64,000 bases of DNA from Aurelia coerulea (Eukaryota > Cnidaria > Scyphozoa > Semaeostomeae > Ulmaridae), in contig CM076955.1 of assembly GCA_039566865.1 (NCBI GenBank), positions 19,637,501 to 19,701,500 of the forward strand. The letters are read 5' to 3'. Under the pieces are notes generated by a model. The model did no database searches and was not told the DNA's origin. It saw only the letters and a program-made list of their open reading frames with translations. Each line of letters begins with the position of its first letter. Positions within the stretch are counted from its first letter, which is position 1. The translations under genes were made by a program, and so were the position numbers. Of this stretch, positions 21,501 to 62,164 are shown in pieces.

Positions 21501-24500
21501 CTTATTGAAACGGAATCATTGTTTTTCAGTAAGAAAACGAACTTCCTTTGCGATTTCTGTAGCGGTTTTAGCATAGTTGAAGTAAGCCCTCTTCAAAGAG
21601 ATATATCTTTGTTGGAAATGCAAAGGAAGGCGCCATTTTTGAAAGGAGAGGACGTTTGTCACAGATTTGTGGCTTTCTGATATTCGTTGCTTCTCTATAA
21701 GTCCCAAAGATTCTATGACAAGGCTGTACAGAACCAGACTTAAGCAGCTTTGTGGCTTTCTGATTTTATTGCTTCTTTGTAAATGCTTCACGTATTTTTT
21801 GCAAGAAACTGCTTATTAGATAGCCTGCGTGCAGACTCGACTATCCTAAAGTGTAGGATAGTCGAGTCTGCACGCAGGCTACTTATAAGAAAGCAGAGAA
21901 GGTCAACTATCAGATTGCCTAAAAATCCAGAAGCTCCAGTACTGGGAAAAATATCTCCAGATATATGGAACCTCGTAAGAAACTCGTAAGAAACTCTGAG
22001 TACTCAAAGTTTGATAATTTTTAGAAACTTTCAATACCGGCTCTAATTCTAAAAAACAAAAGAAGAATGGAATGTAGAAAGAATGAAGCTTTAAAATGAA
22101 TGCATTAAGTAGTCAAGTAAAGGAAATTTGCTGACGTCAAGGTTGTGTGGCATCCTGTGTAGCATGGTCTGCGTGATGCCTCAAGTGTGATGAGACAATG
22201 AAATATTTACCCTTTAACCCTTGGTAAATTGGTTCTTATCGGTGGTTTGCCGAATTTGTTGATTGCATAATGTCGGTCTACCTCCATATACCTGCATGTG
22301 GCAGCCATGCTTATTTCTGCATCTCGTGGGGTGTATCACTCTGCCGAAAGGCGTACGAGATTTTTTGAAACAATGGGATTTTAGTGATTTTTCGTGGATT
22401 TTTCTTGAAAACAAAGTGATTTTTGCCAATGGCGTACGAGATTTTTACAGAGTGAAACGCCCCTCACTTTATCCCTCCTCTTCTCCTGGAACATTATAAG
22501 ATCCTCCATTCTCGAGTAAGGCTAAGGTATTGATAACAAGAATAGCCTCACGTTCAGAAACCGTACAGGCTTCCTCACGTAAGGACGGAAATCTCTTTTT
22601 TCCACATTTCAATTATAAAGACAAATTCAAATTGGGTCGTTTTCAGCTCTCGTGCTTTCTTTCCTCTCTGCTCCTTTTTTGAACTCCTTTTCTATTGAAA
22701 GCTTTTTCATCCGAGCAGTTGTTAACCCCTACCAACTCTGAACCCTCTTTCTGAACCCTAACTGTGGTCTTATTTCCAGGATCACGAATCTTAGAAAATT
22801 GTATTTGATTAAAGCAATTACTACTGAATTCTCATTGAATAAAAAATATGACATTTGCAAGACTGCTAATAGTTGATGAAAATCACACTAATTTCGAAGC
22901 AACCCCTCTCGTGGCATTTTAGTATGCTTAGTTCTATCTGATAGCTATTGCGTAATTTTATCCTAGACTTACAACGTGATTCCTTGTATTCGTTCAACAT
23001 TTTTAATCTGATCTTTTTATTTTCTCTCATATGAGCGATAACCATCCAATTCAATGAGCGATGCTGAAACTTATGTAATGAGTCTAACTTTATCTTTGCT
23101 TTTTCAGAAAAAGAAGCAATACACAGAAGAGGAACAGGCTGCAAGAACCCTTGCCTCGCACTGTCAGCAAAATAAGAGTTTCATCAAAAACATATTCCAA
23201 GCTCAGTACAAATCGTCAATCGCTTGTCCTAACTGTAACACGTGTTCCAGCACGTTCGATCCATTTCTTTGCATCTCGTTACCAATCCCTCAGAAAGAAA
23301 CCAAGCCTATGTACATGACGATGATATACCCTGGCAACAGTAAGCCACCGAGTAAATTCGGCGTCAGTGTTCCGCATTGCGGCACTGTACGAGATCTCAA
23401 AGCGACAGCTTCAAAACTCGTTGATATTCCCGAAGACCGATTAATTCTCGCCTTGGTTTACGAAGATGGCGATCAATGTTCGCTACATGACGAAAGTATG
23501 GTTGACTCCATCCCAGAAATGGACGATTGTTTATTCGTAATTCAGGCCCCTCCACGAGACGCTTTGAAATCGTTACCCGAAGCAACTTCTACCGAAAAAT
23601 CCGCATCTGAGGGACAGAAATTGACAGAAACTGCAAGGACACCACAGCCTAAAGCAGCAGTCGATGGCCTAGCAGCTAATTTCCAGAACAGAATGCAATT
23701 GCCTTTGCTGAGAGACGGTGATAATGACAGTGTTATTATTGTCGTGACGAATGTGGAGCTGAAAGGAAAGCGGTATCGAAGGTCAGTTAAGTCATCATTA
23801 TTTCTGTTGACAACTTCTTCAAAACTGAAAAACCTCCCGCTTTAAAAAACAGAAAAATTTCCCGCTTTCGTTGACTTTTCAAGCGTTTTTATGAGCACTG
23901 GACAATAAAGGTAAATTATACTGTTAGGCCTTTTTCAGGCATTTCACAACCGTGAAATTTTCGTTAAAGGGAATGTAAGCATATAAAAGTGGCTCAAGTT
24001 GGCGTAGATCAGTTACCCAAATATGGTGTGGCACGTGTCATTGCCGATTGTCTTTGCGTGGCTTTTTTATCAAGGGCGTATATATGCTTAGATCCCCTTT
24101 AAGTCAAATTTACCTGTATTTCATGTGCTCATAAAAGTGCGAGAAAGAATACGAAATACTTCAATCTCTCGGCTATCAAGAAGAATTTGATTCATTCAGA
24201 TCCATCAAGTACTTTTGGTGCTATGAATTTTCAAAACTGGGAACTTTTTTCTGGCTCATCTCTTATTCTTTGTATGGTCTTTTTCGTGCAGCTATAGGTA
24301 CAATGGCCTTTTTCTTGCACTTTTTTTGTTTCAGTCAGCGCAAGGAAAAAGATCCAACTTCAGTTGTGCAAAAATAGTTATGTTCCTGCGAAGCAACCTC
24401 AACCTAAAATTCTTCCTTCTATTATTTTATCAATGTTTTCTTGTGCCAGATCTCAAAGCACTATTGACTGCACAACGCATATGAGCACTAGAAGAACAAA

Positions 24501-27500
24501 ATCAAACATCGCCATTTTCTTTTGATCAGTCTTTCCTTCTTTCTTGCTTCCCTCTTTACATTTCCAATCTTTATTTTCACTGTTCATCCTGCCTTCTTTC
24601 CCCTTTCCATTTTTCGTTCTTGTTCTTCACCTCATTCCTTTTTCCTATTTCTTTCATTTCTTCTTTCCTCCCTTCTCGTTTCTGTCCAACTTTGCAGCCA
24701 GAACAGCCAGAGGTGGACAGGGTTCGATGCCCGGTAGAGCCCCACCACTTGAGCGTCATGACAAGGGGTCGTGGACTCGATTAGGTCTTCTCTACTTCTG
24801 CGATCCCAGCGCTTGACGGTAAAAGAAAAGCAACTTCACCTTCACCTTCACTTCACCTTTTCTTCCTTCAAGATAAACGAGCTTCCTGCGAAGCCGCTTC
24901 GTGCACTTTTCCACTCTGCCTAACTTTGTGATTAATTCCAGGACCGTCGAGAGGGGGGTTGGAGGGGGTAAAAGGTCCGGGGCCCGGGCCTTGAAGGGGC
25001 CCGTAAAAATATCGTTCGACAAAATTATTCATTGCTGTAAAATCTCTTTACCGCAACTTTTATGGCCATCTACCTGCCTTAAACATAGACATAAGAAAAT
25101 AGTTTTCTTATGGCTATGCTTAAAAGTTTTGTGTCCGTGCCGTGCTTTCAAAGTCACCTCGTAAAAGCGAATCTCTTCATTGTTTACCGTGAATATCACC
25201 TCCTTAATAACTTTTTCATGGAACACTTAAACAACTTTTCTAAATTAGCTGTCTTAAAAAGGGCGTTTCCCTCATTCCCCGAGAGTCTGGAGGGCATGGT
25301 CCCGGAAAAATTTCTTGGGGGCTTCGCCCCCTTGCCCCCCTCGAGACCCGATCCTAAGAATTGCTCCAGGGCCCGAGCTGGCTCTCAACGGCCCTAGTTG
25401 ATTCAGTTATTTATTTTACCTTCTTACTGATATTCTTTTCTCGTTGTCTGTCTTAGATTTGGCCTTCCCATCACGCTGCGAGTGTCACGAAATGTTAGTT
25501 TCAAGGATTTGCAGATTCTTATCAGAAGGGAAATGCCAACAGAAATCAGAAGTGCTATTAACACGGAGGTAAACTTTTTATCTGCTTTGTTTTATTTTTT
25601 GATATTTGGTAGATGAAATGCTGAAAATTGGTAAGGAGTTAGAGGCAAAGAAACGAGACTTTGAATCAGCACACTAGAAAAGTTAACGTTTTGGCTTGTA
25701 AGGGAGGTGCTTATTAGAAAGGGGGCTAAACAGATTGGGGGGCTAAATAGAGCTTTTATGGTAAGTTATCTTCTAAAACAGCATTAATTACTTCAATAAA
25801 ATCTCGAGGTTGACGTGGGGCAATAGTTTCAGTTGATAAACATAAATTTCTCTATTAATTAAACTAAAATGCCAGGATTTAATTAGACTAAACGTATCGG
25901 GCATAACCCTTCATCAGTATTCAATACATCAGTACGTCATAAACACACATTGTTTTTCACGCTTTTCCAAGGGTGGTCTTAAGCTTATGGCCATAGCTAT
26001 GGACTGAATGCCCTCTACTTCCTTTTTCCGTGAAGCAATATTCTTCACGGAGTTTCGATATTTTGCACACTAATCATAGAGGTGAATTATGCATAGATTG
26101 ATGTAAAATCCTATGATCCAGCTGAGTAACACAATTTTTGGTCGGCAGAACCACTGTAATTTCCGAATCTACATGGAAAGTTGATCTAAATGAGCTTCAA
26201 AAGAGCAAAATAGGCAGAGTGATGGGGTTCCATATCGTTACGCCAAGAAACGTTGTTGACAAAAATATGGTCTTAATTTTTTGGCCACGACTGTAATAGA
26301 GAAATAAAGAAGATCTTCAGTCTTGGAGTTTCCTATACATAACCGCGGCAAAGATATTGGGATAAATTTCGAGGATTAATATCCGCCGGGAATCATTTCT
26401 TCCCCCCGAGCACAACGCTGGTAGGTCATTCTTTGATATTTCTTCATAGGCAAAGAGCTGGAAATTGATTCTTGGACTCCGGGTGGTCGGTGGACAACTA
26501 AACAACGATTACTTAAAAGAATCTGACGTCAGACCTTTACGGCAGCCAACCGTCGAAAGGTTAGTAATTTGATGAACTCTTCACTTGTCGCTCGTTCAGT
26601 GGCCAGTAGCTAGTCATATGTTATTTTGGCCTTTTTCGTCATGATTTATTTTTAGAAGAATTTGGGTGTGTCTGGGCATGACATGCGTTTTTCAATGTTT
26701 TTGGAAACATTTCTCCGGTCAATTCCCCCGCCTATGTGACCATACTGTTATGGTTCTCCAACGAGAAAGACAGCTCAGCTCCTTGCTTCCTTTGCATTCC
26801 AAGCCCTGTAGGAAATTAACGAAAATGAAAAACAGTTTTCTAAGTGTTCTATTCACAGCTAGAATTCCTCAAATGCGTGAGAATTTTTTCATTTTTTCAC
26901 TAGTATTAATTTGCACTACAGTAACGGTAGATAGATGGGAAACATGACGAAAGTCTTTATTTTCCCACATAAATTCACTGTTTGTCGTGAATTCTCACAG
27001 TGTATTATCTCGAGCTACAAAACCTTTTGAAATTGTGTACAAAATACCAACGCTGTGATGTTGTAAACATTTTGTTCACATACACAAACAGCATTGCAAA
27101 GCAAGCAATCATGTGGATATCTTTTCTCAGTGAAAAATTCATCAACTCTTGCTGAGAAAATATTTTCTTCCTGCCAAAAGGCATCATTGAAATGTACGAT
27201 TTCATTGTTTGTGAGATCGTAACTTTTTCACGTGGAATGATATCTAGTTTGACCTAGTTGTGAGAAAGAACAGAAGACCACCACTGAGAATGTTCTTTCT
27301 TTCTACTTAAAAATCTTTTGAAAAAATAATTCCTTTATATCCTGGTCTCATGAGTATTGAATACAAGCAACGTTCTGAAAAACCGTTTGTCGTAATAAGC
27401 CGATTTCATGTAATACGTTGCTCTAAACAATAGAATCTCAGAATTGCACATGGGCAGGTTTCGACTCGTGGGTGGGTATTTCCCTTTGGAAAAGACGAAT

Positions 27501-30500
27501 GCTTTGAGCTGCCAGCAGGCAGATAGATGTTTCCAAATATAGCCCAAACGTCGATGAGAAGAAATCATGGTAAAACATTCCTGAATATTTTAAAATCTTC
27601 CGTGGCAGGGTGCCAATCAAAGCTACAAATAGTTCTGTCAGAACCGAAGAAATTACAGGATACTATCAGTGAAAGTCTTACAGATTCTTTCCAGAAGAGC
27701 TAGACTCCCGTTTAAGCGATTTGGATTCTGTGCACTAGCGATTGCAGGGTCATCGTCCTTTGTGAATTCGTGCATGCCGCAAAGCGCTTAGCCTGCGTGC
27801 AGACTATACCCAAGGAAAAGGTATAGTCTGCGCAACACCGCTCACTTTTGTGTAGTGTGTGCTTCAGCAATTATTTCGCAATAGTGATAACAAAGACAAC
27901 TTATTGTTGTAACAGCCAATAAAATGACTTTCCCGCGAAATGAGGAAGCAATCAGATTTGAGAATGGCTATCATGTGATTAAATCTCAGGCTTCACTTTG
28001 TTCTCTAGGCAAACATCATTAGCAACACAATACTCTGGAATTTTAACTCCCCTACTGCAGACAATAACCAGACGCTAAGAAGAAAGGGCCATTCAAACTG
28101 CCATTGAAATGAAATGCTGACGCATACAATACACGATATTGAGCGGCGTTGCGCAGACTATACCTTTTCCTTGGTTAGGTATTGTCTGCACGCAGGCTAC
28201 AAAGCGCTTTACCCATTCCTTTGATCAGTGAACCAATCAGACTCATCGTCTTTTCCATTGTGATTTACAAAAGGGGGAGTTCGCAGTATCCTGACTCGAC
28301 TGGTTTCTTTTTAGAGAAGTTTCTCCTCCAATAAGAGAAACTTATCCTACTGGAGTAGGAACCTCTCTCACAACAAATCAGTCGAGTCTGCACGCAGGCT
28401 AAAAAAGTGATGATGATAGCTGCAAATTATATTCAGTGCAGTGGATAAACTTAAGGCACACTCTTGTACAAATGTGGGTCAAGTACCTCCCTCCTCCTGG
28501 GGCTTGGTGTAACCGTTTCATCTTTTCTGATAGGGATAGCAACTAAAAGATTTGTTCAGAGCGCAAATTTTTGCTATGGCTAATTGTTTGGGAGATGTAT
28601 TGACGTTGGAAAATTGCTTTGCACTGCAGCAGACTTTACTTTGTGTGCTCTTAGCAACAACATAAATTTCGTTTCCAAACATTCTGTCGAGGGACAGATG
28701 CAGTAACAATTTACACCTGCCTTTTTAAAGATTCGACGCCAACGTTTGAAAATCATCATTGCTAAGTCACAGATTTCCGTGTCAATGTTTTTCTAATCAG
28801 CATTCTTTTAATCTCCTTTTCAGGGCACTGATAACTAATCTGAGTGCAGGACCGCCACATATTTCAATTGTTGCTGAATGGGAACCTGAAAGTCAAGAAT
28901 GGTAAAGATCTTTGATATATAGCAGTGATTTCTAGATTTAACTACCTTAGGAGCTTAGCACACAGACAAGGCTATCATGTCTTCTGAAACTGTAGTATTT
29001 GATACAGTTAGTCATTGGGAATATTTTATATTTTCTCAGTCTGCCTTATGTGCCACAAGCGAGTGATGACCTCAGTTTTTTATATTTGTATTTCAGCTAT
29101 ACATTGGTTCCAATATGATTTGAACTTTACTGCGACGGGTTTACTGGTCTGGTAAAAAAGCCTTCCCGCTTTTAGGGCTGTTATTAACAATGATTTCCTG
29201 ATCAAGACCAGAGGGGATGGGCCATGTATAAGAATATTTTGTTTGACAATCAAAATCCCAAGTGTTTAAGCACTTGAATTTGGTATCTTAATCCAAATAC
29301 AATTGCTTTCTTCAGGTGTTTGGCCAAGTACGGACAAGGCCACGCTGTGGAACACGAAAGTGTCAAGCTGTTAGAGGAAGAATATTCTGAAGGACAGGAT
29401 GTCACCCTGAATGATTGTCTCGAGCTACATACGAAGGAAGAAGAGGTAGATAATTTAAAACTTTACTCTTTGCTCTTCTTTGATGTGAGAGATTGCAATG
29501 TTGCAGGTTTTTACCTAGCTATGAAAGGCTCACGACAAGAGTTTTTATAAATACCGATTCCTCAATGGCACTTCTACTTGTTGACGTCGCCTTTCTTTAT
29601 CAAACATTATTTCAACATAAAGCCAAGATTTTTTGGGTAGAATGAAGGTGAAGGTGAAGTTGCATTTTTCAGCGCCAAGCGCTGGGATCGCAGAAATAGA
29701 GCAGACCTAATCGAGTCCGCGACCCCTTGTCATGACGCTCAAGTGGTGGGGTCCTACCGGGTATCGACCCCACTCCGCCTGACTGTTCTGGCTGCGAAGT
29801 TCTGGTAGAATCTTCTTATTTCAATCTTGAGCTTTCTTCCCTTTCTGGATCTGGAATACCCATTACCATGTATTCTTCTCGCGTACCTTTGCGTTGTACT
29901 TACAACGCAAAATAGCCCCTGTCTGATACATTTGCAATTAAATTTGACATTGACTATTTTTACTTCTAGTTACAATACGAAGATTCTTGGACTTGTCCAA
30001 ACTGCAAGATAGATGTAAACAGAACAACAAAGAAATTATGCTTGTGGTCGTTACCTGATGTCCTTGTCGTACACCTGAAAAGATTTCAACAGGTAAATCT
30101 TTAAAGATATTCCGAGAAATGCTTACTTACAAATTTAAAATAATTCGGTGAAATCCGATGCCTTGACCCTCAAAGTCGTTATTTCTCTACAAACAGTTGC
30201 TTGAATTTCTCTTTTTCGGAAAGGGCATGGTTTTCGACAATTTTTGCCAGAAAAAATTTCGTCAGTGTATTGAAGAACATTGTACACTTGAAGATATGAA
30301 GGTATGAGGACCCCTGAAGGTATGAGGACCCCTGATCAACAACTGCTCTAAAATTATAACGGGGCATCTTTCAACATACAAAATGGTGGGAAAGTCCCCA
30401 CCAGCCCCTCCAATGTCCCCACCATTCATGCCCATTTTCCCCACCATTGAAGTGCCCTTTTAGTCAAAAACTGTGTTCAGAATATCATGAATGTAGGTTG

Positions 30501-31881
30501 AAGACAGGGTTGATAGAAGAACTCGATAAAATAACAAACTATCCATTTTTATAGCATCCCTTTGTATCAATTTTCAGTGTGCATCGATGTTGATCTGGTA
30601 TTAGATAATTTTAGCATTGGTTCCAAATCTTTAACTCGGCATAAAAAGGTGGGTATAAAATTCAATGACCTATTTCTTCTGATTGAATGGCTTGAAAAAA
30701 ACTTTAGATAATCATTATAAATCTACCGCTAAACTTTCGAGAAATTTTGAATATTTTTCGAAATTACAGCGTATCTTACATTTCAACTCATTTGAGGATG
30801 TGACGTCATCAAATTTCTAAATCATAAACAAGATGAGTGACAGACTTTTGCTGGATACCATATTGTCGGCATTCATGAACTATGGTTTTCTTCGAAATTA
30901 CTTAATGTTGCATCAAACAGTTTAGAAATTACTATGGTTTTAAGTTTTATTGAAAATTTTTCTTGAATTCTTGAAAAAGAAGAAAAACACTCTAATTCTG
31001 AAAATATTGAAGATTTCAGAAAATTCCAACGGTAGAATTATAGAGAATTAGCTAAAGTTTCTTTGAAGTCATTCAGTTCAAAGAAATAAGTCACTCAATT
31101 TTACACCAGCCCTTTCAAAGATTTGGAACATATACTGACAGTTGTTTGTTTAAAGAAATTCATCGTTGTTCTTACCTGATGCTGTTTACTTTAAAAGATA
31201 GCTACGCCACTCTGTAGGGCCATCCTTAGTTGCCCTTTCAATGGATTCCCTACCAGTAAAAGATTCCCTGGATTGCACACCTTTTGCCAAGTGATACTTA
31301 AACCCAAATCAAGAGCAATGAAATTTTCCTTTTTGAAGATCAGTATGTCAATATGCAAAGTCTGTCGTCGTTATATTCTGAAAAGCCGAATTCGACCTTA
31401 GTTCAAGCCTATTTCTATTTACCAGGCGAATCACTGGAAAGGCAAGATCTCAGCTGATGTCCAATTCCCACTGAAAAGTCTTGACATGGGCCCACATTTA
31501 GCATCACGCTCTCAAGTGTCACCTCGGCTTGCAAAGAAATACAGCAACTCAAAGAAACACGCCTACTCCCCTCCCCCAGACGCTGATGACTGTATTTACG
31601 ACCTATTTGCAGTCTGCAACCATATTGGTCCCTACATTACCAGTGGACACTACACGGCCTATTGCAAGAACTCAGCAAATGAGAACTGGTATTGCTTCGA
31701 TGATTCAAACGTTTATGGAATTGATGAAGAACAGGTTTGCACGAGAAGTGCTTATTTAGTGTTTTATCAGAAACGTAACGCCGTATCAAGGTCAGCTTCT
31801 TCGATGAGCCTCTCTTCCGTGGGCAGTCATTGGTCGCAGTATATCAGCACACCGCAGCTCAATACTGAAAGTGAGAGGTAA
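15586..31881 (+). CDS. Ubiquitin carboxyl-terminal hydrolase, USP31/USP43-like
   Basis: A cysteine protease of the USP family that would remove ubiquitin from proteins. Coding exons are 15586-15994, 17317-17744, 23108-23781, 25457-25568, 26450-26559, 28824-28901, 29316-29445, 29970-30092 and 31426-31881. All junctions are GT-AG, phases agree throughout, and they give 839 residues. The Cys box is [15 protein letters not shown] (catalytic Cys157), with [13 protein letters not shown] after it. A zinc-ribbon half CPNC lies in exon 3 and the second, CPNC, in exon 8. The His box is [10 protein letters not shown] (His763), then [10 protein letters not shown] Ubl-like insert ([18 protein letters not shown]) matches the USP31/43 layout. 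The N-terminus is Ser-rich and basic, probably disordered. The C-terminal tail is short compared with vertebrate members (see 32250-32346). Introns hold at least twelve repeats. The start is the first in-frame ATG behind an acceptor. Whether it is USP31 or USP43 cannot be decided by eye. Confidence 0.94.
16930..17316. repeat. AAGAAACT-family repeat abutting USP exon 2 acceptor
   Basis: Contains AATTTCTTAAATTTTTTAGG, CCGTTTCTTATAAGCGG and TTTCTTATAACAAAATGAGT, then TTTCTTGAAACAG, whose AG is the 3' splice site of USP exon 2 (17315-17316). The segment TTTCTTATAA...TTTCTTGAAA resembles the right edge of the repeat at 3985-4015, suggesting that the acceptor region is repeat-derived. Confidence 0.5.
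20590..20655 (+). repeat. 17-bp tandem repeat, about four units
   Basis: TTTGTGACAGTTTTCTT is repeated about four times with single-base changes in USP intron 2. It produces a spurious repetitive minus-strand peptide and has no other meaning that I can see. Confidence 0.8.
21290..21607 (+). repeat. 163-bp tandem duplication in USP intron 2
   Basis: CCTTAGACCACTAAACCTCG starts near 21290 and again near 21453. Both copies continue through GTTTTTCAGTAAGAAAACGA and CTTCCTTTGCGATTTCTGTA to GTAAGCCCTCTTCAAAGAGA, with small differences and an extra CTTCCTTTGCGATTTCT in the first copy. This looks like a local tandem duplication, not a transposon. Confidence 0.8.
21821..21881. mobile_element. Minimal 61-bp palindromic MITE (Mutator-like family)
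   Basis: Two perfect 28-base inverted arms, beginning TAGCCTGCGTGCAGACTCGA, are separated by the 5-base loop AAGTG. The flanking 9-mers are CTTATTAGA (left) and CTTATAAGA (right), matching at 8 of 9 positions, as expected for a slightly decayed 9-bp target duplication. The arm sequence matches the ends of the 411-bp element at 27789-28199. Confidence 0.85.
21895..22055 (+). repeat. AAGAAACT-family repeat, internally deleted copy
   Basis: GTCAACTATCAGATTGCCTA, CCAGTACTGGGAAAAAT, CGTAAGAAACTCGTAAGAAA and AATACCGGCTCTAATTC align with both ends of the family; the middle is missing. It starts immediately right of the 61-bp palindrome. Confidence 0.6.
22056..23107. other. USP intron 2, 3' part; no element recognised
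   Basis: Intron DNA before exon 3. The phrase GGCGTACGAGATTTTT occurs twice (about 22351 and 22431). No coding or transposon boundary could be supported. Confidence 0.35.
23968..24098. mobile_element. 131-bp MITE flanked by TTAA
   Basis: Ends AGGGAATGTAAGCATATA and TATATGCTTAGATCCCCT are imperfect inverted repeats. TTAA lies directly outside each end (23964-23967 and 24099-24102). A TTAA duplication points to the piggyBac or Kolobok type. Intron of the USP gene. Confidence 0.7.
24690..24868 (+). mobile_element. SINE-like retroposon with (TTCACC)n tail, plus orientation
   Basis: The body runs GCCAGAACAGCCAGAGGTGG, GGGTTCGATGCCCGGTAG, CACTTGAGCGTCATGACAAG, GGGTCGTGGACTCGATTAGG and GCGATCCCAGCGCTTGACGG, and ends in repeated TTCACC. 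GGTTCGATGCC fits a pol III B-box. A clear A-box was not found. A near-identical copy lies inverted at 29642-29812. Confidence 0.55.
24939..25397. mobile_element. hAT-like element with G/C-rich ends
   Basis: The left end CAGGACCGTCGAGAG (24939) and right end CTCTCAACGGCCCTAG (25382-25397) are imperfect inverted repeats. Inside lie GGGGCCCGGGCCTTGAAGGG and GGGGGCTTCGCCCCCTTGCC. No transposase and no clean target duplication was found. USP intron 3. Confidence 0.5.
25975..26297. mobile_element. Tc1/mariner-like derived repeat, copy 1
   Basis: Right end GGTCTTAATTTTTTGGCCAC then GACTGTA resembles Tc1-type termini (inverse CAGTCGTGGCCAAAA). The left end carries GGTCTTAAGCTTATGGCCAT in the same orientation. 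Shares long stretches with 43388-43793, such as ATTTTTGGTCGGCAGAACCA versus GTCGGCAGAACCACTGTAAT and TCCATATCGTTACGCCAAGA. Non-coding. USP intron 4. Confidence 0.55.
26640..27788. other. USP intron 5, first part; no element recognised
   Basis: Unique-looking intron sequence with short unsupported reading frames on both strands. No similarity recognised. Confidence 0.35.
27789..28199. mobile_element. 411-bp Mutator-like MITE with perfect 9-bp duplication
   Basis: It begins TAGCCTGCGTGCAGACTATA and ends with the inverse TGTCTGCACGCAGGCTA. The inverted homology continues inward through AAGGAAAAGGTATAGTCTGC and GCGCAAC.CCGCTCA. The 9-mer CAAAGCGCT flanks both ends (27780-27788 and 28200-28208). 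Long inverted ends with a 9-bp duplication are the hallmark of Mutator-like elements. The interior is non-coding. USP intron 5. Confidence 0.88.
28291..28401. mobile_element. Degraded member of the TAGCCTGCGTGCAGAC family
   Basis: The right end ACGCAGGCTA (28392-28401) with AGTCGAGTCTGC before it is intact. The left end keeps only GACTCGACTGG. The interior is a fold-back: TTAGAGAAGTTTCTCCT, AGAGAAACTTATCCTACTGG and AGTAGGAACCTCTCTC. No clear duplication. Confidence 0.55.
29642..29812 (-). mobile_element. SINE-like retroposon with (TTCACC)n tail, minus orientation
   Basis: Reverse complement of the 24690-24868 repeat: GAAGGTGAAGGTGAAG, GCGCCAAGCGCTGGGATCGC, CCCCTTGTCATGACGCTCAA and CCTACCGGGTATCGACCCCA. 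The two copies lie in different USP introns in opposite orientation and could pair in pre-mRNA. Confidence 0.6.
30620..31129. mobile_element. 510-bp MITE, copy in USP intron 8
   Basis: Ends GTTCCAAATCTTTAACTCGG and AAAGATTTGGAAC are inverted repeats, extending inward as TATAAAATTCAATGACCTAT against TCACTCAATTTTACACC. A second full copy is at 55010-55519, and related pieces are near 44060-44200 and 52600-52690. The interior includes GATGTGACGTCATCAA, a CRE-like palindrome, in both full copies. Confidence 0.75.
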
Positions 31882-35455: not shown

Positions 35456-35912
35456 GTAAGAGATTGAGAGAAAGAAACGAATTCGTTTTCTCAATTCTTT
35501 CGGTCTTTCGTTACCAGCTCCGCAGAAAAATACAAAACATTCCCCCACAGACAGGTACATAATAGTTGCAACGCTCCTCCATAGAAGCACACCAGCAGTG
35601 TCTAGCTACCCATGCTCTAAAGTCTATCTCAAATTAAATGTCACGTGAGATTTGCGACAACGCAAAATATTCACTCAGAAGCACTTCAATTGTTTTTAAT
35701 TCGCGGACATTTTCACTTGACGTCTAATTTGAGACAACCATACACATTGTTCATACTGGAGTATAATTAATTAAAGTAAAGGTCAGTAATAAGGCAGATA
35801 TTTTAGATGTAATTCTGTAAGAACATTTTGTAATCATCTTGTCAATAAAAGCAAGAAAATATCAACTGTTTTATTTTTTTTCTGCTCAACGAGGTTTGAT
35901 TCTGTAACAACA

Positions 35913-36512
35913 TAACAAGGGCAGATTTTGTAATACAATAGCATGAGTTGCTTTTGTTGACACCTCAGTTCAAAGCAATTAGCGATTGCAGACAAAGGAA
36001 ATTCTCTCAACCAGCAATTCAAAACAAACAAAGCCGCAAAAGTTTCTTTGAAACCCAGGTAGCTAGCTCGCTCGTTGTGCATTCCAGAAACTGTTTTTAA
36101 GGGCAAACATGAGCGTAGATCGAAAGAAGAAGGATTCATCCACACATCTGCCGCGGGCATTTTATTTGTTTGGTTCACAAGCCGTTTAGGAGGCGATTCA
36201 ATTCTCTTATTTTTTTGGGTGTTATCAAAACATTTACTGCTCAGCTTCTGGACCAAAGAAATAGAATGCCCGCGGCAGATGTGTAGATATATCCTTCTTC
36301 TTTCGATCTATACTCATGTTTGCCCTTAAAAATTATTTCTGGAATGCACAGCGAGCGAGCTAGCTACCTGGGTTTCAGAGAAAATTTTGCGGCTTTGTTT
36401 GTTTTGAATCACTGGTTGATAGAATTTCCTTTGTCTGTGATCGCTAATCGCTTTGAATTGAGGTGTCAACAAAAGCAGCTCGTGCTATTATATTACAAAA
36501 TCTGCCCTTGTT
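35913..36512. mobile_element. 600-bp long-palindrome MITE with 8-bp duplication
   Basis: The left half (AACAAGGGCAGATTTTGTAA, then AATAGCATGAGTTGCTTTTG and on through GGTAGCTAGCTCGCTCGTTG) is repeated in inverse order in the right half. TAACAACA flanks both sides (35905-35912 and 36513-36520). Related copies are at 44640-45093 and 53540-53947. Open frames inside are artefacts of the palindrome. Confidence 0.75.
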
Positions 36513-36671
36513 TAACAACACTACAACCCGAATTTCCACTTTTTGAGCTTTAGTAAAAGTACTTACTTTCTGGTGTATAAGATTTAAGAACAATGCAATT
36601 AATAAAACATGTACAAAATAAACGAACTAAATAATATGCCGTAGAACTAATTGCGTTTGCAATCACCAATA

Positions 36672-37181: not shown

Positions 37182-39918
37182 CTATTTTTTTCGTTCCCTC
37201 TTCAGACCCATGACAGGCATTTCGATAGTCGCCACATCTTCTTTATCCGCGTTTAAATACAAATTCATGTTCCGTGCACTGTTTGATACATTCAGCGTGT
37301 TAATACACCGCACTGCCGCGTTCCTCATATCCGCGCGGAATCGTGAATCCGTTGCGTACATGCCACGCTTGGTGATAATCGTTGGCCAATCAGCTTTGAC
37401 AGGTAGATCTACTGTGGCATGGTAAAAATGAGGCGTCACGAATGTCAAAAACCGCGTTGATTTTGGCTCAGGTTGTCGCCTGCCGTTGTTCACCTTATAC
37501 GGCATGAAAATCTCCTTGAAATTCTTACGCGGATGACAATGTATCATGACCAAGCGGATTTTGAGTAAATTTGCAGCGGCCATGAGCACATACTGCTTGC
37601 CATAAGTGCTATCAAGTCGTAGCTGTTTTACGAATGCTTCGTACTCTGGGATATCAGGATCTTTGTCAATGATTCCTTTATAGTGCCACGGATTATGCTC
37701 GATCTCATCTGCGATTCTCTGCCGCATTGTTTTACGTACATCAAGATAGACAATCCCCATGCTATCTTGAACGAAGCTAATGCAATCCAAAAGATGATTA
37801 CTATCATGCGAATTACTAACTTCCTCTAATCCGAGTTGATCTGCAATCCAACGCACTAACGTTTTACTCTCCTCAAGATCTTTAGTCGGTACGATCAATT
37901 TTCGTCTCATCTCAACTGTGCAACGTCTTGCGTAGTTGAATCGTTTGAATTTCCTGTCCTGTCCCTTAATGCAAGCTTTCACAGTTTCAAACATGACGTT
38001 CCCGTCACGGATATTTTTCTGCAGAAGCAAAATACAGAACTGGAAATCTTTGAATCCGGGCATGCCACCGTAATATTCCGATGCCGAACCAAACAAATCG
38101 GCCATGTCATTGTTACCGAACAGTTTCCGACCGATCATCCACAAAACTCCATTCAAGGACAGCATTGTCATGCTGAAGACGACAAACGAATTTGCTATCA
38201 TCAGACCGCACAAAAATAACGCAGGCGACAAGTTGCAGCAGACATCATTCATATCGACGCCAATGTTTGCTGTACCGAAATCGCATTTGAAATTGAGTGG
38301 AAAGGTCCGGACGAAATACAGAGATGTAAACATTAAGATCGTGCTTCCTAAGCCAGCAATAGCTAACACCAAAGTCTTGATTTTATACACCGTTATGAGG
38401 TAGCTGCTTTCTGTGAGCAAGTATAGCAGTTTATTGTGCAGGATTTCGATTTTGTCTTTGTTGTGAGAATCGAACGATAGTTCTGAGGCCATTTGAAACG
38501 TATTCGGGTTGCGATAATATTTTGGCTGTATTTTGCACATTTCTTTGAATATTCCGTAAAATGCTTCGAATTTGGAGAAGATTGCTGGATGTTTGAGCCA
38601 CCCAAAATGTAGAACGGAGAATAGTGCCCATTCCACGAATAGAGCATAAGGGTAGTGCACAAGGAGCTTTCCGGTAAAGGTGTGAGTGCATTTTGAGTTG
38701 AGGTACTTCACCTGAAAGAGAAGCAGATCATTTTCTTTGCAGATTTGACGAAGATGCAGTCGAAGATCCATATGACAGAAAGTTTATTGGATTTCAGAAT
38801 TGGTGCCAATCAAACACACCGGTATTAAGGTTAGAATTCCCCATTTTATAATGATAATGACCGTATTTCTGCATTTCTGCTCGACGTTCAACCTTCTCAA
38901 AGCTAGGGAGCTTAGAATGGTACTTGATTGTTACCAGTCCTGAAAACAGTAGACTTAGGGGGGAGACTTGGTAGACTCATAATGACCATAATCTATCTTC
39001 GATTGACTCCGAAGTGTTCGTTTACACTGCACCCTGTACAAACATGCAAGGCTGATTGTAGCGTGGATTGTGACCTTTTCATGACCTTGTACTTACCATT
39101 GAAGAGAATTACAAGGCTATCAATGAGATTCAAAGTTACAACCAGTCTAACACAAGGTTTCCACAAGGTTAATTAGCATTTTTCGAGCCATTTACAAGGT
39201 TATAGCAAGGCTATTCTAGGTTAGAACAAGGTTACAAGGCCATAACTACAAGGCTTGTACATGGCTATTACATGGCCTTTTATTTTCGTACAGGACAAAA
39301 CAAAATCATACTATGGATAGCAGGAACAAAAATGTCATGGGCTAGCAGGAATAGTGTAAACGGACGACTCATCCAATACACTTTTGTTACGGACCGGTAC
39401 AGGACCGGACCTTTATGTATTTAGAGCAGACTTCATAATGATGTAGTGGGTATCAAATCGCAAAATCTCTCCAACAGGAAATCAAGGGCACTTTAAACCT
39501 TTTTTTCCTAACTGGGAATACCTTGCTTTCAATTGCTTATAATTCAATGAAAAATAATGGAAAATTTCTTGAAATTGTCAGAAATTGTAGGTAGATGTGT
39601 GTGCTATCCAAATATCTAAAAATTCAAAAATTGAGCAGATAAGATATTTGATCGTTCTCAAGGGGTACATTAACCTTAACCGTGGTCAAAGAAAAGACCA
39701 TCTGCCTATGCCTACATTACCTGCGCAAAAGAATATGATTTTTCTCTTCCCATGCATATGATGCCTTGACTTTCATGCAAAGTGACATTTGCAAATGCAA
39801 GCAGGGTAAGAAGAAGCATCCCCATGTTGAGGTAATCGATGAAAAGATCCCACCATGGTTTGAAGAAATGAATTGAAACTGAATCACCAAATTCGTACAG
39901 CTCAGATAATGCAAGCAT
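37182..39918 (-). CDS. LRRC8/pannexin-like channel fused to an OTU-like domain
   Basis: Two coding exons, 39918-39721 and 38711-37182, join in phase 0 across GT-AG sites and give 575 residues. Exon 1 (MLALSELYEFGDS..., then FFKPWWDLFIDYLNMGML) closely follows the LRRC8 N-terminus, whose hallmark is KPWWDVFTDY at the start of TM1. Predicted TM segments are about residues 23-45, 82-105, 178-201 and 229-258. The first extracellular loop has Cys55 and Cys74; the second has Cys209, Cys224 and Cys225. After TM4 a segment with YYGGMPGFKDFQFCILLLQK parallels the LRRC8 IPDVKNDFAF region. Where LRRC8 has leucine-rich repeats, residues about 355-510 look OTU-like: HDSNHLLDCISF, YGKQYVLMAAANLLKI, then TPHFYHATV. 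The OTU Cys position is His372, so catalysis is doubtful. The start is the ATG right after a TTTCAG acceptor; a 5' UTR exon probably ends at 40295. Fusion and fold are inference from motif order. Confidence 0.82.
39033..39294. mobile_element. CCTGTAC MITE in the channel-gene intron
   Basis: Ends CCTGTACAAACATGCAAGGC and TATTTTCGTACAGG are inverted repeats. The interior is a degenerate array of ACAAGG(C/T)T-type units. Other copies are at 41350-41624 (opposite orientation) and 57240-57542. Confidence 0.75.
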
Positions 39919-40295
39919 CCTGAAATAGGACATATGCGGGCTAAATGTATAACGATCTACTCGCTACTCCTACTATTTAAACTCCCCTACAGTGTGTCCC
40001 CCAAAATTATGTATCGGTTTTGCTGAGCCATACAATCATGAATTATAAACCGAGTTCAATGATTTACCTTTCATTTTACAGCCCAAAGGCTAATTAACTT
40101 AGATGGAAAAAAGTGAGTGTATCACACTTTGATCCCTGATCCGTAATTAATCTATCTGTTAACGACCACTGCAAATCGGATTTGATTGTGTTTATTAGAC
40201 GTGGTCTATGGCTTCAAGTGAATTCAAGCAAGGTAACGATAATTTGATAAGAAACACAACAATTAGTTAAGAAAGTAAGAAAGCGGAGACTTACC

Positions 40296-40402: not shown

Positions 40403-41062
40403 ATGTTTGTTGACGAAGAATTCGTAATGGCGGATAAATCGCCAAAAAGCTGCGAGGTGAGAAAGATCTCTTTAAATTCATATTTTGATTAGACATGGTT
40501 AGTTAAATGATATCAAAATGTTTTCAAGCAAACTGAATACAGATTTGAAAAATGAAAGAGTGTTTTCAATGGGATTTGAGCTTAAAATTTTCCAATGTAA
40601 TATTGTTTTAATTTGATAAGGCCTATCCTTTTGGCTTGGCCTAAAAAGTCATTATTGCCATAGGTCGAGTCGAATCACAAATGCTTTAGAGGTTTGATAA
40701 TAAATTTCTGTTGTGTTCAACTGCTCCTCAGCCTGCAGACATCATAAGTTTGACTGTGTACATGATATTTAGGCTGGCAAAATTTGTGCGACCAGCAAAA
40801 CTTTGAGTCTTCCATTCCAGTTTGCCGTGACTGTGACACAGCACTCTATCATTTTCCTTATTTGTAATTGATCTGCCAACTTGCACTACTAGTACTAGTA
40901 CTTACTTCTACAAAAACACCTGTTATTCCAGGAATTCTAGCGCATGTGCTGATGTATCAGTTACAGTACACTGCCCACAACATTTCATCTCTTTAATTCT
41001 TTTCCAGACTTAAAATGCTCTGATGTTATTGGGTAGAGTCAACATGAATGAACTCAGAAACG

Positions 41063-44000: not shown

Positions 44001-47000
44001 GATAAGCTAAAGAATACGGAAACAATGTTGATAGAGCTTGCAATATAACATAGGCTCCCATTCTTTAAAATGCTCGATGTAAAATTCTATGGCCTATTTC
44101 TTTGAACCGAATAGCTTGGAAGAAACGTTAGCTACTGTACTTTGCTATAATCCCACCATTAGAATTTTTAGAAATCTCCGAAGAAAGATTTTGAACCTAT
44201 GCTTTGCAACTGTGCTCTGCTTGCTTTGCTTTAATTTAGTAACTAGGTTATGTATTTTGCTTTAAGATATTAGATGGTAAACTTTTATCACGGTCCCCTG
44301 AAAGGCAGCCTTTGCTGACGGGGTTACCGTGTGTAAAGAATATAGAATAGAAAAAATACTGTAAACTATATAGTCTTTCATAATATTCTAGCGTTCTTTG
44401 ATCCTTGTACTTTTAAAGATTTGTTGATCTTGTTTTCCAGCCACTCTTTGGTTTTATACTATCAAAGCTAAACCTTATCACACAAGCTTACTTCAATGAA
44501 AAGGATTTCTCTCAAACCACTATTCTGAAGGTATGCAATGTTCTTCTTTTTATGGGACAACAAACGTTTTAATGTTTGTTATTTGTTAATTTGTTTTGAT
44601 TGATGAAAACCCGCAAACTTCTCTCAGCTCTCCTTGTTGAATAAGTTGAATGTTCATCATGTCTACGAGGTGTCTAAGAAGTTATGTGCTTAAACGAAAG
44701 AAGAAGGGTAAATCTAAAGTTCTATCTGGCCTATTTTGTTTATTTGATTTAGGAGCCGAGCAGAAGGCATTATAATTCTCGCGTATTTAGGGCTTAAATG
44801 AAACGATTACAAAACAGCTCCTGGATAAAATAAATAAAATCTGCAAGACAGAACTTTAGATTTTGCCATTCTTCTTTCGTTATAAGCACATAACTTCTTT
44901 TAAAAATCACCTTTCGGTTGCACAAGGCGAGAGTTTGCCCTACTGGTTTCAGGGCAACATTTGTGGCTTTGTTTGTTTTAAATTACAGGTTGAGAGAATT
45001 TCCTTTGTCTGCAGTCACTAATCGCTTTGAATTGAGGTGTCAATCACACGCAACTGTTGCTATTGTATTACAAAATATGCCCTTGTTCTTTTCATCATGT
45101 TTAGGATACCTATACAGCATTGAACCAAACCTTGTCAACATCAAAGCTGAACGTATCAATGTTCTACATAGGTTAGTACTTTTGAAACTCTTTCTTCCTT
45201 GGTTTGGTTCTATCTCTAGAACTGAAATAGTCTGAGTCGAACGATGTTTTTATACCGGGTGCGCCAAAATAAACTATGCACGTTTGGCAGGCCACAATAA
45301 ATCGTACACTGGGTCGATTTTAAAGATTTATGACTTAATCGTTAGCAGAAAGCCTGAATTAGATACTTGGAGTTTTGAAAATTGTTTTATTTTCAGTTTT
45401 TAGAACTAGAAGCGAGTTTCCTAAAATGTTAGTTTTGGAAAACACTGAAAACGATCATAAATCATCGATCAAGTTTTCTAAAGAATCGACATCAATGGAC
45501 AAAGAGAGAACTTGTTCGTGGTAATTTGCGATTTAGAAATCGATTAATTGTAATTTGCTGTACGAGAGTTCGTACTAACCCCCTAAATCCCCCAGAAAAC
45601 ATTTTCTCTTTCTTGATTCATGTTGAATCTTTTCAAATTTGATCGACGTTTTTTTATCGTTTTCAATGTTCTCGAAAACGAACATTTTAAGAAACTCGCT
45701 TCTAGCTCTAAAAACTGAAAATAAAACAATTTTCAAAAACTCCAAGTATCTAATTCAGGCCTTCTGCTAAAGATTAAGTCATAAATCTTCAAAATCGGTC
45801 CAGTGTATGATTTTTTGTGGCCTGCCAAACGTGCATAGTTTGTTTTGGCGTACCCGGTACATTTTGAAGAATTTTTCAATGCACGATAGTGATAAAGGCT
45901 CTGGTGCCACTTTATTGAACGTCTCGTACAGAAATTTATGAAAATGTAGTTTGATCCAGGCTCTTTCACAGAATAGCTAATTGGTCTGTTGCAAATATTT
46001 CATACTGTTAGGATGGTTCCAACCATAGTAGAACCGTGTTAGAAGTGGGAAAGTACATTTTCTAAACTCGTTTTAACCACATTTTTCTAGAGTTATCCCC
46101 GGGGGGGGGGGTACTTGACCAGGTTTTGGTCGGGGACGTGCCATCGAAGCTTCAAAAACATACCCGTTCCTTATACCAATTTTACGAAAAAGTATACCCG
46201 ACTTTCTACCAATTTTGTGAAAAAGTATACCCGACCTTATATCAATTTTCCGAAAAAGTATACCAAAATCGTTCCTTAAAAACCAAAATCACGAAAACCG
46301 ATACCGTTCCTTATACCAAAATGGTGAAAATCGATACCGTTCCTTGTACCAAAATCGCGAAAATCGATACCCTTCCCGATGGCACACCCCGTACCCAAAA
46401 TATGTGAAGTACCCCCCCCCCCGGGAAGTTATCACTTTCAAAGGGAATTAAAAAGTTGTTGATTCCATCCGAGTGATGTTGAAGGTACCTGACAACATCT
46501 GGACATTTTGGCAAGCATAATTTTAAATCCGACTCAATTTTGCTCTTGTGTGAACCAAGCTTGATAAAACGATTTTAGACAGAGTTGAAGTTTATTAGTG
46601 CCAAGCAAGACACGAGAGAGCAGGCTCAAGTCATGCTAAAAACTAACTTCTTAAGTAATCAACGAGGCTAAATCAACAGGACTTCAAACCTAAGAACGAA
46701 GCTAATACGTTACAATTAGTAACCTAACAAACACACGAAGTTGCAAAGAGCACTGTACCTTTACAAAAGAACTTTCAAAGTTTAACCTCCAAGATCCTAA
46801 GGTATAACCAGACAGTGAATACTTCATGAGGGCAGGCCTTTTTAATGTGCACGAGTTTGCCAGCACCACTCGCAGGCACAAAAATGTAATGGTTGCTGTT
46901 TGATCGCAGGCACATTTCCCCCAACTATTTGCTCGCAGGCACCAAACATCTTTAATCTTCCAGACAGTTCAGCACCAAACCACCCAAATTTCCCATAGTG

Positions 47001-55000: not shown

Positions 55001-58000
55001 GCAGCATATGTTCCAAATCTTTATCTCGGCGTAAACAGGTGGGTGTAAAATTCAATGACCTATTTCTTGTGATTGAATGGCTTGAAAGAAACTTTAGACA
55101 CTTATCTATAATTCTACCCTTGGACTTTTCAGAAATTTTGAATGTTTTTCGCAATTACAGCGCATCTTACATTCAACTCATTTGAGGATGTGACGTCATC
55201 AATTTTCTAAATCATAAACCAGATGAGTGACAGACTTTTGCTTGATACCATATTGTAGGCATTCATAAACTATGGTTTTCTTCGAAATTATTTCATGTTA
55301 CGTCAAACAGTTTAGAAATTACGATGGCTTTAAGTTTGTTTGAAAATTTTTCTTGAATTCTTGAAAAAGAAGAAAATCACTCTAATTCTGAAAATATTGA
55401 AGATTTCAGAAAATTCCAACGGTAGAATTATAGAGAATCAGCTAAAGTTTCTTGTAAGTCATTCAGTTCAAAGAAATAGGTCACTCGATTTTACACCAGC
55501 CTTTTTAAAGATTTGGAACCTATGCTGTACGCTGCTGGACTTTGAATTTTATAGACCATGAATTCAGGGCTGGATTCATGAAGCAACAAGCGAAAGAGAG
55601 AAAACGGAATATTAATACAAGTTATAGAATATGGAAAATATTTCTTGTTTGAATTTTTTCATGAAATCTGACTGGTTTTTTATTCCTTTTCAGCATGGGA
55701 TGGAAGTGATGAGTGGATACGATTACAATTCAAATATTACATCTTATGTCTTTTAGCAAGCACTGCCCCTGAAAAAGGTACATTATTTTATGCAACTAAA
55801 CTTTACGATCTATCTAGATGGGATACTATCTGAAAAACAGGACAACAAATAAGGTGCAGTATCAAAATTACATTCTGTATTACGAGGATCATTTTTCTTT
55901 TGGTTTATACCATGGAAGCTTGTATAGATAACCAGTGCCTACACTAGATCAGCCAAAAAGTACGACTTTCTGGCCCATTGTAACTGATGCTCTCAGCCAA
56001 TCATGACGATTAACTTTGTTAGGAATGGTTCTAATTCGACCTCGTCAACATGTCTCATTTTTTCGTTTTGAAATCTGAACAATTTTTGCTGAAAGCATAT
56101 TCTAGCAGAGTCTTTCAACAGCGAAAAATGCTTGGTCAAATTTGAATGCCAAAGCCTGCAACTGCAGATTATGCAAAATAGGTTTTTTTATTGTAAATGA
56201 TGCCTTCTTCATAACATTGTATGTATTTTTGTAAATAGTTGTGGCCTTAATTAGCAATTATAGCTATAATGTTTTAGCCAACTTTAAATGAAAGAATTAA
56301 TAATAATATTTGATACTAATTGAAGCCTGAACTCGTACGAGAAAGAGAAGTCTCTTTTAAACGAATAGAATCTAATCAGTGTCAGTTTTGCACTAGTCTA
56401 GTCATATTTTCAACTTCCAAATTTGAACTATTTTTATTGATTTTGACATTATCTCTTCAAGGAAATTCAAGTCACATTCACAAACAATTTAACGAGGAAT
56501 TTATCACCAATTGGAAACAAACAAATAATTATAAACAATGGATTGAGCAAAAGCATCTTGGACTTGAAAGTATTCATCAAGGGTGAGCTCTCTGCATGGT
56601 TTTCCTATTTTATCTTTATCAAGTTGCAGATTAAAGGGGCTCCGTCGCCAAACTGTAAACAAATCTGATAACATCACACGTTGTCTTCTTTGGTTTGTTT
56701 GGTGGCTTCACCCAAGCCCAATGAGTGCTTGCTAAAAATCCATTTATATCCAAGCAATCGTTAGAGATATGAATGTTTGGGTTTTCACTCTGTGAAGTGC
56801 AAAGATCTATCTTCAAAATGACGCCTTCATTTTTGAAAAACAGGTAAACGTCTATGTGATACTGCCTATTAAAACATTGCAAAATCACCGTTGCGACCGA
56901 AATTTGCAAATCTTCCTTAAGGTGCATGTTATTACTTTTCAAAATGTCTTTGGGTGTTGTCTTCTCTCGTCTTTCATTGAAAATTTACCTCTTATTCTTT
57001 CTCCTAGGCATCCTTTTGAAGGTGGATTAACAATATCAGATATCAAGCTCAGGATACAGAGGTATTATATCCTTTTCCTTCCAGTTCGTTGTCATCTTCA
57101 TGCAAAGTGGACATTGAAACCTCATTTACCTATTACTTTGCAAAATCTTTCTGCAGCACAGTACGGATAAAATATAGTATGCATACCAAAAGAGCTGCTT
57201 CTGTTTTTTTACGAGCCATGCTGATCCTTGTAAAAAGATCCTGTACAAAAATACAAGGCTAAACTTGGCCTTGTACAGGCGAAGTTTTAGCCTTGTAGAG
57301 GGGATGATGACCTTGTTATGACCTTGTACTAACCTTGGAAGAAAATTACAAGGCTATCAGTAAGATTCCAAGCTGCAACCAGTCTAACACAAGGTTTCCA
57401 CAAGGCTTCTACAAGGCTAATTAGCATTTTTCAAGCCATTTACAAGGTTACAGCAAGGCTATTCCAGGCTATAACAAGGTTACAAGGCCATAACTACAAG
57501 GCTTGTACATGGCTATTACATGGCCTTGTATTTTCGTACAGGATATTTCTTGAGCTAGAGCAATTGAGAACATAAATGTTTTTTATTTTCACTTAGCCGG
57601 ATAGATGCCCTTTCAATATCTGATGAATCAAGAGAGAAAATTGGTGCAGCTGTTAAAAAAACAGGACAAGTTGTTGGTATGTGTCTCTTGCTTCTCTTTT
57701 TCCTTTCAATGATTTTCAAAAGATTATTTTTGAGAATTTGTTCGCTTGCCAAAATATTTATCTCCTCAAAATTTCCTTTCCAATTATCTAACACATTTAT
57801 TCTTACACATGTATTTTTATCAGAAACTACTTACAAGAAAGTCAACTCTCAGATCTCCAAAAAATTAGGAAAGTCCAGATTACCTGGAGCAAATTTATTT
57901 CGATCAAGGAAATCTTTTATTTTCGCTCTTTTGTTGCATACTTAGGTACTTAGGTCATGATGATTCATGAAAAAGCATGGCTAAAACTAACCAACATACC

Positions 58001-61242: not shown

Positions 61243-62164
61243 TTTGAATTTCAACTGTGAATGCAAGAGATTGCGTCATCGCCTGCGCAGCGTCCGCGTT
61301 TGATTTTACGTTTGATATTGATTTCTTTTTTTGCAGATTTGAAGTTTATTAATTTTGCAATTTTTCCATGAGTATTTTTCCAAAAATTTGAGAAAAATAA
61401 TTTCTCCATCATACAAATAGACACTTTGCCATTTGAAACATTTGTCTTTAAAACATCTTTTAAAAATCAAAACTATTATTAAGAAGGATTATCAGAACGG
61501 AGAAAGCTTTACGGAGTTGTTAGCAACCCTTCTGTACTTGTGGCGCCCATGTGTGGCATGGCAGCAATCATTCTCCTCACCCCCCCCCCACACGCAAACA
61601 ACCTTTGTTCGAAATTAGTCAAATGGCAATTTCAGAATGTGCGCACACGGATAAAAGGGATAAAATACCACTTAGCTGAAAACGAGGTTAAGCAAAAAGA
61701 GCGTCTTTAAAAAGAGGGAGTTCCCAGTATTCGAGAAAGGTCTTTTCATAAAAGATTTCGCCACGAACGAATCGTGATTTCAGGCTGAACCGGAAGAGAA
61801 TTTTTCACACAGTGCAGCAATTTCTCAGGACAAATTTGTGGACGCTCAAAGTCCAGGATATCTCGCTGACTTCAGTTTCATCAAGTGACACGAGCAAGAG
61901 GCCTATAACTAAAAAAGACCTACTCGCAAAGAAGAGAAAGGCCATCATCATCCATTCACTGCAAATTGAATACGACGCTGTGTTTGAAGCATCACATCCT
62001 CCATCACATCTAGAACAGCAACTTGCCACACACAGGTAATAGCATGCCAAATTAATTTGACTAGGTACATATAGGCCTAGGTTTTTGTTGGAACTACACG
62101 GTTTTTTTTGGGAGTGAATTTTTCAGAATAGCCAAAAGAATCTAGATTTATAAAACAGATCTTT
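61243..62164. other. TBCC upstream region and an unrecognised ORF
   Basis: 61260-61320 is the likely TBCC promoter side and contains CGCCTGCGCAGCGTCCGCG, NRF1-like. The open frame 61812-62039 (plus; KKDLLAKKRKAIIIHSLQIE inside) ends at a possible donor CACAG|GTAATA. I do not recognise it, and it may be part of a degraded transposon gene. Confidence 0.3.

Follow-up and report, generated by a model that had tools for sequence, protein, structure and literature searches.

An LRRC8-type pore entrance joined to a putative pseudo-OTU tail in a predicted channel subunit of Aurelia coerulea

Can the pore of an LRRC8 channel be joined to a cytosolic domain other than leucine-rich repeats (LRRs)? The question is raised by a locus in the stretch of Aurelia coerulea DNA analysed here (64,000 nucleotides, hereafter the window), where a single predicted protein begins like the pore-forming part of LRRC8 and ends in a tail that resembles OTU domains. 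The way in which LRRC8 gating is controlled by the cytosolic repeats is, to our knowledge, not settled. A naturally occurring subunit that has this pore entrance but carries another cytosolic domain would test both the modularity of the pore and the role of the tail. The reading that we favour, and consider on balance probable, is that of a large-pore subunit of the LRRC8/pannexin type in which a degenerate OTU-like domain without catalytic activity stands in place of the LRRs.

Gene structure and genomic setting

The gene is read on the reverse strand as two coding exons, preceded by a candidate intron in the 5' untranslated region:

39920-40294, minus strand: candidate 5'-UTR intron (AAG/GTAAGT ... 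TTTCAG/gATG), read from the sequence
39721-39918, minus strand: coding exon 1, residues 1-66 (N-terminal coil, TM1, start of the first extracellular loop, C55, and F64)
38712-39720, minus strand: intron of 1009 bases, phase 0, GT...AG
37182-38711, minus strand: coding exon 2, residues 67-575 and the stop codon

Exon 1 opens with an ATG and ends at the boundary CAG/GTAATG, TTCTCTTTCAG stands directly 5' of exon 2, and the two exons join in phase into a single frame of 575 residues that is closed by a stop. The first-pass annotation had described an unbroken frame running from the pore into OTU-like motifs, and this is borne out, as the one frame carries FFKPWWDLFIDYLNMGML, DSNHLLDCIS (369-378), YGKQYVLMAAA (from residue 436), and HFYHATV (494-500). 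Reading through from exon 1 is blocked by a stop two codons inside the intron, while exon 2 is stop-free over 509 codons, a run with a chance of about 1.5e-14 at the base composition of that exon. A codon score trained on the other genes of the window gave 0.100 bits per codon for the pore part of exon 2 and 0.117 for its tail part, equally positive values, and was negative in the five alternative frames of both parts. For the 66 codons of exon 1, the result was less clean, the score being highest in the coding frame (0.182) but slightly positive in two others (0.073 and 0.005). The join between the exons is further supported by homology, because the match of residues 56-135 to LRRC8D, which by itself scores 15.4 bits (i-Evalue 0.045), runs ungapped across the junction at residues 66/67 and has its sole gap near residue 124.

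Searches for relatives of the gene covered the window itself, phages, plasmids, and viral and genome contigs. Within the window, only two chance matches were found as potential paralogues (E = 6.3 and 9.3); exon 2 had no tblastn match among phages and plasmids at E<=1; and searches for related loci by sequence pattern gave 1 and 14 pattern matches in viral contigs and 47 in genome contigs, with none confirmed. The NCBIfam scan returned no family.

The surroundings of the gene include a neighbouring gene at 17298-31881 (plus strand) that encodes a USP-type deubiquitinase; PF00443 was recognised in two open reading frames (ORFs), 17298-17798 and 31402-31878, and in a third, 23042-23842, at a score under the cut-off. 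Its position beside a gene with an OTU-like tail is probably a coincidence. A Tubulin-binding cofactor C gene (PF07986, PF16752) occupies 59402-61275 (minus strand), and a long open frame at 1-2268 (minus strand), cut by the window edge, resembles a LINE endonuclease/reverse transcriptase. At 40403-40456 (plus strand), MFVDEEFVMADKSPKSCE, followed by GTGAG, may be a short first exon transcribed divergently; its ATG and the donor of the candidate 5' exon of the channel gene are 108 bases apart, and from this arrangement, a bidirectional promoter is possible. Recurring translated strings (...FELRCQ... and ...TSLTQGFHK...), read by eye, mark dispersed repeats, one of them within the intron of the channel gene and others a short way downstream:

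35837-36307, minus strand: dispersed repeat
36287-36550, plus strand: dispersed repeat
38928-39173, plus strand: dispersed repeat
44894-45232, plus strand: dispersed repeat
57333-57572, plus strand: dispersed repeat

The LRRC8-type pore

Pfam recognised a single family in the protein, PF12534, the pannexin-like region of LRRC8, and did so in the N-terminal half for which that family had been proposed (E = 2.1e-10; 40.6 bits against a curated cut-off of 25; best stretch, residues 1-58). Further, phmmer matched 26 PDB sequences at E<=10, of which 25 were LRRC8 chains. Ten of these were LRRC8D, LRRC8C, or LRRC8C chimaera chains (E = 7.6e-8 to 2.7e-5), and fifteen were LRRC8A chains (E = 0.0013-0.0045); the remaining sequence, 2r39 (E = 1.1), matched the tail by chance. 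Chains of innexins, pannexins, connexins, and CALHM were absent from these matches.

A profile built from human LRRC8A, C, and D placed the similarity more narrowly. Residues 1-140 scored 36.2 bits, which none of 5000 full and none of 5000 local shuffles reached, and residues 1-345 scored 29.1 bits, reached by none of 10000 shuffles. In contrast, residues 140-345, comprising TM3-TM4 and the linker, scored 3.5 bits, a value reached by 29/5000 and 81/5000 shuffles, and residues 262-345 alone gave no score. Identity to LRRC8 shows the same division, at 27-30 per cent for residues 1-140 versus 16-19 per cent for the TM3-TM4/linker part. At the level of sequence, the assignment of residues 1-140 to the LRRC8 type is solid. 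Since similarity beyond residue 140 is not significant, position is the basis on which TM3, TM4, and the linker are assigned, through the four hydropathy peaks (residues ~24-48, 82-100, 169-200, and 223-260) and the aligned cysteines C209 and C225. The earlier claim of a match to the whole LRRC8 pore-domain plan consequently stands in significant sequence similarity for its first part and in layout and cysteines for TM3 and TM4. The segments beyond exon 1 are as follows:

38610-38666, minus strand: TM2, ~residues 82-100, from hydropathy and alignment
38310-38390, minus strand: TM3, ~residues 174-200, from hydropathy and alignment, by layout only
38124-38234, minus strand: TM4, ~residues 226-262, from hydropathy and alignment, by layout only
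37875-38123, minus strand: cytosolic segment, residues 263-345, aligned at the position of the LRRC8 linker between TM4 and the LRRs

Four of the six extracellular cysteines of LRRC8A are aligned, with C54, C113, C295, and C310 falling on C55, C74, C209, and C225, in that order; C57 and C65 have no counterpart in the shortened loop. LRRC8A P22 and P147 align with P21 and P108, and E6 is also kept. Q14, Y382, and L402 are not kept, and T44 and T48 are paired with V45 and E49, beside an alignment gap. The first extracellular loop (39721-39756 and 38688-38711, minus strand) has 18 residues between C55 and C74, where the same span in LRRC8A, from C54 to C113, has 58, so that the shortened loop amounts to little beyond the part that bears the filter residue in LRRC8.

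That filter position is occupied by F64, which aligns with R103 of LRRC8A and F143 of LRRC8D. According to two published accounts, LRRC8A is narrowest at a ring formed by R103, LRRC8D has a wider ring formed by F143, and the R103F substitution lowers chloride selectivity (PMC9399500, PMC6086657). By analogy with these data, F64 at the LRRC8D F143 position would suggest a wide, weakly anion-selective pore.

The OTU-like tail

The remainder of the protein has no C-terminal LRRs, with no Pfam match to LRR families at E<=10, and its hydropathy shows one weak single window at residues 440-458. The features assigned to it are:

37395-37811, minus strand: OTU-like domain, ~residues 367-505, by profile statistics; no LRR
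37776-37805, minus strand: DSNHLLDCIS (369-378), at the position of the OTU active-site motif DGNCLFRAVS, with His372 in place of the catalytic Cys
37410-37430, minus strand: HFYHATV (494-500), candidate OTU His motif, block score not significant

Several profile comparisons point to the OTU family. With small OTU profiles of three and four domains, the real tail ranked 1 of 5001 with each, and with eight-domain and eleven-domain profiles, it ranked second of 20001. A nine-domain profile gave the tail 11.8 bits, a score reached by 0/25000 shuffles and 3/25000 local shuffles, while the reversed tail scored -1.0. As decoys, we used 2948 ORFs from 122 viral loci that had been gathered by OTU DNA patterns. 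Only one, from a locus picked for its DGNCLFRA codons and itself a weak OTU match (L001), reached the score of the tail with the nine-domain profile (19.1; next 10.0), and the eight-domain profile gave the same order (L001 16.8, tail 11.4, next 9.4). In a length-limited subset of 822 of these ORFs (150-600 residues, no X), which excludes L001, none reached the tail, and the best scored 6.8.

The stretch scored by the OTU profile spans residues ~393-457 and excludes the active-site block, so the latter constitutes a separate test. DSNHLLDCISF was the top-scoring active-site block in the tail, at 7.6 bits versus 3.9 for the next, and it stood at the family spacing; its score was reached by 44/20000 shuffles, or by 119/20000 with looser spacing. 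Further, hhalign against eleven OTU domains placed DSNHLLDCIS on the active site unprompted (P = 0.008).

Other measures did not recover the family. Neither PF02338 nor C65, the Pfam OTU families, matched the protein or the tail at E<=10, whereas all six of the known OTU domains tested matched PF02338 at 5.6e-9 or better. Probabilities from hhalign were low, at 3.5 in one comparison and at 0.1, 12.5, and 4.9 per cent in another set. Against PDB sequences, the best match of the tail was the chance match to 2r39 (E = 0.42). A full-length path through the OTU profile was reached by 8/5000 shuffles with its anchors misplaced, and a four-block OTU score of 10.4 was reached by 86/3000 (z = 2.1) and surpassed in windows of LRRC8A (up to 11.9) and LRRC8C (up to 12.9). 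The His-motif block was at chance level for the OTUD type (3332/5000) and weak for the A20 type (420/5000). AlphaFold2 models made without an alignment, for exon 2 and for the tail alone, had pLDDT values of 34.7 and 46.9, too low to use, and Foldseek with these low-confidence models gave no hit at E<=0.001 and no OTU protein among the best 50 of 86 and the best 50 of 79 matches, lists that carry no meaning at such confidence.

The OTU domain proposed in the first-pass annotation is supported by profile statistics and not by Pfam, with the block test weak and the models too low in confidence to contribute. We regard it as likely, from sequence comparison, that residues 367-505 are related to OTU domains, with the proviso that the family was picked beforehand by eye and the OTU statistics are somewhat overstated for that reason. 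Two other assignments were tried for the tail and rejected: an A20-type OTU, the A20-type profile being at chance, and an LRRC8-type sequence in residues 331-575, where the LRRC8A/C/D pore-and-linker profile was likewise at chance.

OTU proteases have their nucleophile at the start of a helix, in the fourth position of DGNC. Here, that position holds His372, with Asp369 and a candidate His494 retained, and the D-S-N-x-L-x-x-C pattern noted previously must be reread, as its Cys376 lies off the active-site position. Catalysis by the tail is unlikely on these grounds. There is precedent for such a loss: the Drosophila proteins Otu and CG3251, in which the Cys is changed to Ser, were inactive when tested, and non-cleaving roles of OTU proteins are discussed in the same source (PMC4654579). 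Given the His at the catalytic position and this precedent, the tail is probably a pseudo-OTU domain.

Rival readings and relation to known systems

The most serious competitor to the favoured reading keeps the LRRC8-like pore and gives the tail a different or new alpha/beta domain, with its OTU likeness arising fortuitously or by convergence within a helical stretch. It draws on the missing Pfam match, on the want of a meaningful PDB sequence match, on the weak four-block test, on a His motif at chance, and on an uninformative tail model; however, it must also account for an OTU profile score that no full shuffle and 3/25000 local shuffles attained, that one viral ORF in 2948 reached, and that one in a locus selected for OTU motifs, as well as for an active-site block independently placed at the family spacing and set there unprompted by hhalign. 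We consider this explanation possible but doubtful. A membrane-anchored ubiquitin protease that is still active, through Cys376 or another nucleophile, could appeal to the position of Cys376 one helical turn past the lost residue and to the presence of a candidate His, yet the nucleophile position itself is a His, and the two Cys-to-Ser Drosophila proteins are inactive (PMC4654579), which makes such an enzyme highly improbable.

The pore half invites its own doubts. TM3-TM4, half of the pore, are strongly diverged, as might be the case in a non-conducting subunit that acts as a scaffold or as a partner modifying other innexin- or LRRC8-like channels, but the elements that line the pore (N-terminal coil, TM1, filter helix, and TM2) are the best conserved, and we judge this role quite improbable. 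Hardly credible is a gene-model error, pseudogene, or assembly artefact that fused two unrelated pieces: although neither AATAAA nor ATTAAA occurs within 1 kb 3' of the stop codon, TM2-TM4 and the tail lie together in one unbroken exon whose coding signal is as strong in the tail as in the pore part, and homology crosses the sole coding splice junction.

Under the favoured reading of an LRRC8-type subunit with a dead OTU-like tail, the subunits would form a hexamer-like ring, and the pore at its centre would be wide, weakly anion-selective, and LRRC8D-like at its entrance. In the cytosol below, at the place of the LRR pairs in LRRC8A, the OTU-like tails would hang and might control gating or recruit partners, as is thought for the LRRs. 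Lacking a catalytic Cys, the tail could be a binding domain that leaves its partner uncut, whether that is ubiquitin, a ubiquitin-like protein, or something else, and such binding, for which ubiquitin is the obvious candidate, may alter the gating or location of the channel. If the tail is a pseudo-OTU domain, a large-pore channel would be tied to ubiquitin-type recognition. The stronger proposal, a new class of channel in which ubiquitin or a ubiquitin-like protein, acting through a pseudo-deubiquitinase tail, gates or positions a large pore of the LRRC8 type, is decidedly speculative, and we think it unlikely. If true, it would mean that animals have combined the LRRC8 pore, as a module, with cytosolic sensors of more than one kind.

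In the open-access literature, outside which most subscription papers lie, we found no recognisable report of an LRRC8-OTU protein, and within that scope the earlier statement that no family with this architecture has been described stands. Its two halves can each be set beside known proteins. With OTUD1, 3, 4, 5, and 6B and yeast Otu2 (PF02338), the tail shares three elements in the same order and at the same spacing, namely, active-site block, arginine helix, and TYG.... helix; unlike these deubiquitinases, it has His for the catalytic Cys, similarity below the level of Pfam, and a non-significant His block. With Drosophila Otu, CG3251, and human FAM105A, it would share an OTU domain whose catalytic triad is not intact, although the fly proteins have Ser where His stands here, and the excerpts of the source on these inactive proteins do not mention a channel fusion (PMC4654579).

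The pore, in turn, has in common with LRRC8A-E, the subunits of volume-regulated anion channels (PF12534; A, C, and D compared), the N-terminal coil, the KPWWD.F.DY.. TM1, the filter helix before TM2, TM2 itself, the four-TM layout, and four of six extracellular cysteines, whereas the Aurelia protein differs in its absence of LRRs, its short first extracellular loop, its OTU-like tail, and a TM3-TM4 part that is not significantly similar. LRRC8 had been taken in the first-pass annotation for a chordate invention, which is too strong: a review (PMC9399500) credits Abascal and Zardoya (2012) with finding LRRC8-like genes in Nematostella vectensis, for which it suggests horizontal transfer. Like those Nematostella genes, the Aurelia gene is LRRC8-like outside the chordates, and since it apparently comes from an invertebrate animal, it bears on where LRRC8 pores first arose.
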